From Desulfurococcaceae archaeon (GTDB taxonomy: Archaea; Thermoproteota; Thermoprotei_A; Sulfolobales; Desulfurococcaceae), in contig JAJHRJ010000004.1 in the NCBI GenBank assembly GCA_020832865.1, forward strand, positions 1-15,097: DNA of 15,097 nt, given 5' to 3'. The notes under the pieces were generated by a model. That model saw only the letters and a program-made list of their open reading frames with translations. It was not told the origin of the DNA and ran no database searches. Each line of letters starts with the position of its first letter. Position 1 is the stretch's first letter. Shown one piece after another: positions 502 to 2,157 of the stretch. A program made the translations under genes and the position numbers.

Positions 502-1083
502 CTATACTTCTACATATAGGATAATATAACCCTTTTTACTAGTGGTCTTTACGCTCCTATATACTTCTCTAGCTCTACTAGCTAAATACTCTCCCCCCTT
601 AGCTAGGACAAACTGCGCGAAGCCGTTATCAACTAGGTGTTCTCTAGCACCTAGCACGATATCTTCAACTATGCTCATGCCAGCAGATAGTGGTGGGTTT
701 GAGTATATTGCGTTGAATTTTAAGCCTTTTACAGGCTTATACCTGTCTCCCTGTAGAACTACGACTCTGCTATCCACGTTATTTAATCTAGCGTTAATTC
801 TCGCTATTTTGACACATAGTGGATTAATATCTGTCATATAAACTCTGAGCCTGGGGTTTAACTTCGCGACAGTAATACCTATTACCCCGTAGCCGCAGCC
901 CACATCTAGTACGCTGCCCTCTTCGGGTAGCACAATGCTCTCTAGTAGTAGCCTCGTGCCCTCATCTACCTCCGTACCAGAGAAGAGACTAGTATATGAT
1001 ATAAACTGGAGAGTGACTCCCCGTATAAATAGGGGGATTAAGACCTTCTTTCCACGGGCTTCACTCTTGTAGTAGTGTGTCAT
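502..1083 (-). CDS. RsmC-like class I SAM-dependent methyltransferase (probable RNA guanine-N2 type)
   Basis: A 193-residue protein with a Rossmann-fold methyltransferase core. The SAM-binding motif I is VLDVGCGYGVIG (58-69), the acidic loop is MTDIN (83-87), and the catalytic motif IV is NPPLSAG (129-135). The NPP signature with this spacing is typical of the RsmC/MTS small-domain family and of archaeal MJ0882-like proteins, which modify exocyclic amines of bases in rRNA or tRNA. The protein has only the catalytic domain, without the duplicated inactive N-terminal domain of bacterial RsmC. Its ATG overlaps the cbf5 stop (ATGA, 4 bases), so it is translationally coupled to the pseudouridine synthase, which supports an RNA-modification role. 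The exact substrate cannot be read from the sequence. Confidence 0.85.
   Translation of the reverse strand: MTHYYKSEARGKKVLIPLFIRGVTLQFISYTSLFSGTEVDEGTRLLLESIVLPEEGSVLDVGCGYGVIGITVAKLNPRLRVYMTDINPLCVKIARINARLNNVDSRVVVLQGDRYKPVKGLKFNAIYSNPPLSAGMSIVEDIVLGAREHLVDNGFAQFVLAKGGEYLASRAREVYRSVKTTSKKGYIILYVEV
523..540 (-). promoter_or_regulatory. Possible TATA box/BRE for tRNA-Ser inside the methyltransferase gene
   Basis: On the minus strand an A-rich element (AAAAAGGG, 537-530) precedes TTATAT (529-524), whose centre is about 32 bases upstream of the mature tRNA 5' end. This is near the spacing expected for an archaeal BRE/TATA box with a short 5' leader. The sequence also encodes the end of the methyltransferase, so its composition may be coincidental. 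Confidence 0.35.
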
Positions 1084-2157
1084 TTAGATAACACCGTGCT
1101 TGTTTTTCTACGCTTCCAGTAATCGGGGTAAACTCCGCGTGGCATTATGACTCTTGTAGTTTTAACTACAATGCCCTTTTCCATTTTAGCAATCTCCTCA
1201 GCATCCCTGAGGGCCCTGCCGAGTGCTACTAGTTCTCCTTTTAGCGTGAATATCGCGACTCTATTGTTAGCTTTAACGTCACTAGTGAGCATTACTACAC
1301 CTGGCACCGCGAGGTCTGCTCCATGTGCAATAGCGTCTACAGCAGTGTCCATTATGACTATTTTAGGTAAGTGCACTACAGATACTTCAACTGGTAACAC
1401 ATATCTTCTTAAAAGGTCTTCTCTACCATTAGTCCTCCACAGGTAGAGTGCTTCACTAATGGTTTGAAGCCTCACGAGTGTCTCGTCTTCTCTGAAGGGC
1501 CCTGTCCTCGTCCTCCTTAGCTCTCTCATGTGTGCCCCTACTCCTAGGATCAATCCGAGATCGTGTGCTAGCTTTCTCATGTATGTCCCGGGATCGCACA
1601 GTACTCTCATTAGCACGTACTTTTCATAGTGATCTAGGATCTCGATCTCATATATGGTCTTCACTCTCACAGTCCTCTTAACACTTGACCTCAATGGGGG
1701 CTTCTGGTATATTTTACCTTTAAAGTTCTCAATAGCTCTTTGAATATTTCCTAGAGGCGTGTACTCGTGTAGCTGTATTAGCATTACATACTCTTTTACA
1801 CTGTGAATTACACTCCCAATAACCTTGGTACTATTAGCTAGACCTACAGGGAGAACGCCAGTCACTTTGGGGTCTCCCCACCCCTCAGATGAGGGGTTCT
1901 AGGGTACCCCCATGACCGGCTTTACTCACATTAAATATCTTCTTAATCCACGCGACTACTTCATGACTTGTAGGCCCAGGAGGTTTATCTAAGTTTATAA
2001 CACCAAATCGTATAAGGTCTTCAATTTTCCTATCAAGCGGGAACGTGCCATAATCCAGACAGGTATCCGCCTCTCGAAGCTTAATCCAGTTGTTCTCATA
2101 TCCAGCCCTCCTAGTGATCTCGTTAATAAAACGCAGGCCTTTTTCCACTAAACTCAT
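1080..2157 (-). CDS. cbf5: tRNA/rRNA pseudouridine synthase Cbf5 (dyskerin), two exons
   Basis: Cbf5 is the catalytic protein of archaeal H/ACA RNPs and also makes tRNA pseudouridine-55. Exon 1 is 2157-1899 and exon 2 is 1873-1080, both minus strand; joining them gives 1053 bases, 350 residues, normal for the family. The N-terminal extension leads into the TruB core: GVINLDKPPGPTSHEVV (52-68), then AGHGGTLDP with catalytic Asp87, then KVTGVLPVG. The PUA domain covers roughly 254-345. Unspliced, the frame stops after 90 codons and the second part lies in another frame. The missing junction residues are restored exactly by removing 25 bases (1874-1898). The start ATG is preceded by GGGGT (2168-2164) and a TATA-like box. 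The stop overlaps the methyltransferase start. Confidence 0.95.
1874..1898 (-). other. 25-nt bulge-helix-bulge intron in cbf5 mRNA
   Basis: The RNA folds into a splicing-endonuclease substrate. The inner stem is ACCCCUC (1897-1891) with GAGGGGU (1886-1880), closed by an AUCU loop. The central 4-bp helix is CCCU (1904-1901) with GGGG (1879-1876). Two 3-base bulges, both AGA, lie at 1900-1898 and 1875-1873. An outer pairing is possible between GGGG (1911-1907) in exon 1 and CCCC (1872-1869) in exon 2. Cutting after the second base of each bulge and ligating gives CUA GAC CCC AAA, i.e. L-D-P-K, the conserved Cbf5 sequence. The intron shifts the frame (25 is not a multiple of 3) and holds an in-frame UGA. 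Archaeal introns of this kind in cbf5 are established knowledge for Desulfurococcales and Sulfolobales. Confidence 0.93.

Follow-up and report, generated by a model that had tools for sequence, protein, structure and literature searches.

The crenarchaeal cbf5 intron was reportedly described by Watanabe as early as 2002. According to the available portions of a later study (Yokobori 2009, PMC2738675), published cbf5 introns measure 16-44 nt, interrupt the codon of the catalytic Asp, and have probably been lost at least twice; spliced cDNA (partly unpublished) and endonuclease evidence are reported there for relatives of the organism considered here. The cbf5 gene analyzed in the present work occupies the minus strand of a 15,097-nucleotide stretch of archaeal DNA (the window) and is almost certainly interrupted by a member of this family. 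The interruption is a 25-nt archaeal pre-mRNA intron, within the published length range, which as judged from sequence would adopt a relaxed bulge-helix-bulge (BHB) fold, be cut by EndA, and have its flanking exons joined by RtcB.

As it stands in the genome, cbf5 is split into an ORF of 90 aa (2157-1885, minus strand) and another of 261 aa (1865-1080, minus strand). Without splicing, translation would yield GGTLEPLI and end at 90 aa, lacking the Asp. Excising 1898-1874 produces a single 350-aa frame with GHGGTLDPKVTGVLP spanning the junction, and places the intron inside the Asp codon of GGTLDP, split as G^AC (Table 1). With the NCBIfam Cbf5 model NF003280 (cut-off 242), the joined protein reaches 444.9 bits and the separate pieces 85.3 and 335 bits; the joined protein also exceeds the cut-off of TIGR00425. 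Alignment with the solved archaeal Cbf5 2hvy covers residues 25-344 at 363.2 bits and crosses the junction without a gap.

The wider window resembles a crenarchaeal ribosomal-protein cluster, with almost all ORFs on the minus strand and the genes other than cbf5 named by eye. A tRNA-Ser (TGA) at 410-494, the sole match in an Rfam scan of the window at gathering thresholds, lies between a methyltransferase-like gene downstream of cbf5 (by eye) and positions 3-290, which by eye hold the C-terminal end of an ORF resembling the large subunit of archaeal (form III) RuBisCO.

Table 1. Segments of the interrupted cbf5 gene and elements of its predicted RNA fold, in window coordinates
Feature	Position	Strand	Basis and remarks
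cbf5 exon 1, 259 nt	1899..2157	-	ORF; final base is base 1 of the Asp codon; Cbf5 N-terminal match 85.3-87.7 bits, residues 23-88
25-nt intron	1874..1898	-	Frame restoration, structure, same site in 122/150 cbf5 genes
cbf5 exon 2, 794 nt including stop	1080..1873	-	Starts at base 2 of the Asp codon; ORF, splice-join, profile match
Central helix, 5' strand CCCU, in exon 1	1901..1904	-	Fold; pairs 4/4
Central helix, 3' strand GGGG, in intron	1876..1879	-	Fold; 4/4 pairs in 120/122 introns
Bulge 1, A1900 G1899 ^ A1898 (AG^A)	1898..1900	-	5' cut at 1899/1898
Bulge 2, A1875 G1874 ^ A1873 (AG^A)	1873..1875	-	3' cut at 1874/1873
Intron hairpin, 7-bp ACCCCUC/GAGGGGU, loop AUCU	1880..1897	-	Fold; 7/7 pairs; first pairs covary in relatives
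Outer exon helix, 5' strand GGGG	1907..1910	-	Fold; partner CCCC 1872-1869
Outer exon helix, 3' strand CCCC	1869..1872	-	Fold
Distal exon-exon pairing, GCCGGUCAU (1920-1912) with GUGACUGGC (1865-1857)	1857..1920	-	9/9 in window

The protein alone does not fix the cut coordinates, because four placements of the 25-nt cut (shifts of -2, -1, 0 and +1) yield an identical mRNA. It is the structure that settles the register given in Table 1: all four central-helix pairs form, each bulge is AG^A, and each cut follows base 2 of a 3-nt bulge flanking the 4-bp central helix. The minimum-energy fold of 1930-1845 reaches -46.7 kcal/mol (z = -4.78), a stability equaled by 1 of 200 shuffles. Facing bulge 2 on the outer side are U1906 and A1905, of which U1906 pairs with A1873 in the minimum-energy fold, leaving a 1x2 loop. 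Because of these two extra outer-loop bases, the motif is a relaxed rather than a textbook BHB. The accessible text of Yokobori 2009 (PMC2738675) applies the word unconventional to such relaxed forms, which all except two of its seven newly folded species show. An earlier note on this DNA had placed the two parts of Cbf5 in different frames, with removal of 25 bases restoring the family sequence, and had predicted that automatic annotation would show the gene as split or frameshifted. The 350-aa frame and its profile score bear out the former, and a plain ORF call, which gives two broken ORFs, agrees with the latter. Its description of a BHB with standard cuts stands for the cut sites in both bulges and needs amending at the outer loop.

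A first scan gathered 31 loci, the nearest of them from a Desulfurococcaceae MAG with 89% identity across exon 2. A search of 214 genomes of the window's order gave a match in 208, and cbf5 loci were obtained from 149 of the best 150. G125, whose match starts at a contig end, and 58 lower-scoring genomes fall outside the sample, which is biased toward the window's kin. The motif was present in 171 of the 181 rows scanned; two rows were cut off (L025, L095), and the eight without it are GHAGTL variants, six with the intron and two with none. Removal of 27 duplicates, together with L028 and L029 (labelled Methanomassiliicoccus and Thermoplasmata, both intronless), left a final set of 150 cbf5 genes, namely those of 149 relatives and the window, including the first-scan loci L030 and L031. 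The intron scan across relatives was confined to the window's one cbf5 site.

An intron occurs at exactly the same site in 122 of these 150 genes (the window and 121 of the 149 relatives), and 28 read through uninterrupted. After joining, TLDP is present in 150/150, and the frame stays open for 255-278 residues past it in 148, the other two reaching contig ends. Among the 122 carriers, intron lengths span 13-57 nt and are a multiple of 3 in 38. Left unspliced, the split codon would read as Glu in 113 carriers, Asp in one and Gly or Val in eight, with a stop reached a median of 5 codons further on. The window's two nearest tree neighbors also have a 25-nt intron, the closest being 86% identical. 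The nearest loci are labelled Desulfurococcaceae MAGs and are likewise nearest in the trees, which fits a host within Desulfurococcales/Sulfolobales.

Several relatives extend the range of forms. Introns of 57, 52 and 47 nt (L127, L182, L110) exceed the upper length of 44 nt, and 13-nt introns in L174 and L181 (genomes G008 and G007) fall below the lower length of 16 nt, that the consulted portions of the 2009 study report (PMC2738675). In L174 and L181 the intron helix is almost absent and the exon helix is long; in their minimum-energy folds, base pairing runs across the position of bulge 1, which counts against a BHB there. The intronless L121 and L148 share a well-supported six-row group with these two. 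L017 (= L076), from a MAG labelled Pyrodictiaceae, carries the intron. That family is said, in the part of PMC2738675 at hand, to be without it. L017 lies outside the intronless group holding the other Pyrodictiaceae-labelled rows (L020 = L086, L022 = L088), and its label may be broad or wrong.

Conservation of the pairing differs among the elements of the fold. The central helix forms all four pairs in 120 of 122 introns and two pairs in L068 and L073, and its sequence hardly varies among carriers. Sliding it by 1-3 bases keeps four pairs in at most 3 introns, and a slide of 1 base still leaves three of the four in 116-117 of the 122. Because runs of G and C tolerate such a slide, the central helix alone is a weak discriminator of register, amounting to one pair. 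In the intron helix, the four leading pairs form at a rate of 98.3%; 1000 shuffles average 42.4% and never exceed 49.9%, and sliding the helix gives 43-58%. These pairs covary through exchanges among G-C, A-U, U-A, C-G and G-U, and the loop varies in both sequence and length. One Thr codon contributes C's to the central helix, and it is ACC in 119/122 carriers versus 9/28 non-carriers (Fisher p 1.6e-14, relatedness ignored). Among the remaining Thr codons, ACC makes up 20% (carriers) and 30% (non-carriers); the ACC constraint therefore tracks the intron. The distal exon-exon pairing was considered as a conserved extension of the motif and rejected. It scores 6.54/9 for own exons versus 6.45 for crossed exons in the 122 carriers, with the same near-equality in the 28 non-carriers (6.64 versus 6.58), and probably arises as a side effect of the coding sequence.

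The tree built from the 150 proteins requires at least 7 changes of the intron trait, six of them forced by well-supported branches. Absence is clustered, giving 7 changes versus a shuffled mean of 25.9. Two long branches meet in this tree, and a long-branch artefact was checked as the source of the count and rejected. Omitting the five intronless rows of one long branch gives 6 changes on 145 rows (that lineage itself being gone), without the six carriers on the other the count is 7 on 144 rows, and a mixture-model tree of 94 rows selected from the 150, including 22 of the 28 intronless ones, gives 7 (5-95% bootstrap range 7-7). The trees themselves do not separate gain from loss; the roughly seven changes are most simply read as mostly losses, because the site is identical and the structure conserved. 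The window falls among the carriers, with intronless L057 and L030 just outside its wider group. Together with the protein tree, the identical site and a consensus shared by 122 introns, partly coding, point to descent of the window's intron in common with the other cbf5 introns.

Two readings dispense with splicing altogether. An error in sequencing or assembly, or a pseudogene with a frameshift, would explain why the cbf5 ORF is broken in the genome, and has next to no probability here. Because 121 of 149 relatives are interrupted at exactly the same site, chance or sequencing error is excluded, and these interruptions vary in length and sequence while their pairing is conserved; exon 2, moreover, is open for 255-278 residues in 148/150 genes, the remaining two being cut by contig ends. 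Translational bypass has precedents elsewhere, and ribosomes crossing the 25 nt of an unspliced RNA by bypass or programmed frameshift could make use of the stable hairpin. Such a course is extremely improbable, since lengths of 13-57 nt, with 38 of 122 a multiple of 3, form a spread beyond the reach of any single frameshift; the geometry of bulges and central helix suits EndA, and spliced cDNA is reported for relatives in the accessible parts of PMC2738675.

Two further proposals accept the intron and give it a role. The intron's discoverers, in the available text of PMC2738675, suggested that it acts as a brake, with splicing efficiency setting the amount of active Cbf5. That a real intron is also kept for this purpose appears unlikely. 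Retention in 122/150 genes over a deep tree speaks for it, as does the position on the catalytic codon, where an unspliced carrier message ends a median of 5 codons later; about seven trait changes, most simply losses, nevertheless mark the intron as dispensable, its loop varies in sequence and length, and exact deletion may simply be rare. A broader proposal treats the cbf5 intron as a conserved control point, its catalytic-codon position tying active Cbf5 to the tRNA splicing machinery and pseudouridylation to splicing capacity, with about seven separate escapes by exact deletion and one lineage in which erosion has left 13 nt and hardly any intron helix. This idea is quite unlikely.

Under the preferred reading, a spliced pre-mRNA intron, the cbf5 transcript would fold as a relaxed BHB, a splicing endonuclease built as a heterotetramer of alpha and beta EndA subunits would cut each bulge behind its second base, and RtcB would ligate the exons, restoring the GAC codon of the catalytic Asp. 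The same machinery also serves tRNA introns. For the source organism, we infer cutting and joining from sequence, structure and conservation combined. Two EndA-type genes occur in every one of the 4 genomes searched from relatives, the weaker match in the nearest relative scoring 26 bits, under the Pfam cut-off of 27. RtcB was found in 3 of the 4; no RtcB match was found in the possibly incomplete genome of intronless L030, though two EndA genes are present there. Because this intronless relative also has two EndA genes, the presence of machinery genes does not discriminate carriers. At L192 (G001:C71), a single gene, histidyl-tRNA synthetase-like by eye, separates the weaker EndA-type gene from rtcB, which is encoded on the same strand; the EndA and rtcB matches are about 1.5-1.6 kb apart in G001 and G002 and 2.0 kb apart in G003.

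For annotation, the consequence is that one intact gene shows as two broken ORFs, at a site interrupted in 122/150 genes examined. For evolution, the 150-gene set offers a good case for repeated exact intron loss and for a minimal archaeal splicing-endonuclease substrate. The 25-base intron that the earlier note placed at 1874-1898 is upheld by the same site in 121/149 relatives and by the conserved pairing, and its assignment to the known type of Desulfurococcales/Sulfolobales is supported, as site, structure, cuts and clade match the published cbf5 intron. The rarity claimed there holds for archaeal protein genes in general but not for cbf5 in this order.

The BHB introns of archaeal tRNA and rRNA, as set out in the available part of PMC7714728, have the same motif and would share their kind of endonuclease and ligase with the cbf5 intron, yet those lie in stable RNAs, whereas the cbf5 intron interrupts an mRNA that encodes a protein. 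In Haloferax, the HVO_1309 mRNA undergoes BHB processing by the splicing endonuclease; unlike the cbf5 site, this one is located in a 5' UTR and is haloarchaeal (same source, same portion). The cbf5 introns of Desulfurococcales and Sulfolobales, as presented in the accessible sections of Yokobori 2009 (PMC2738675), are the same intron in other species. Relative to that account, the wider survey contributes introns of 13 and of 47-57 nt as well as additional losses, a modest extension when set against the open-access literature (about seven changes versus at least two published, and 13-57 versus 16-44 nt). The intron in the window is an expected finding, a new instance of an already described intron.
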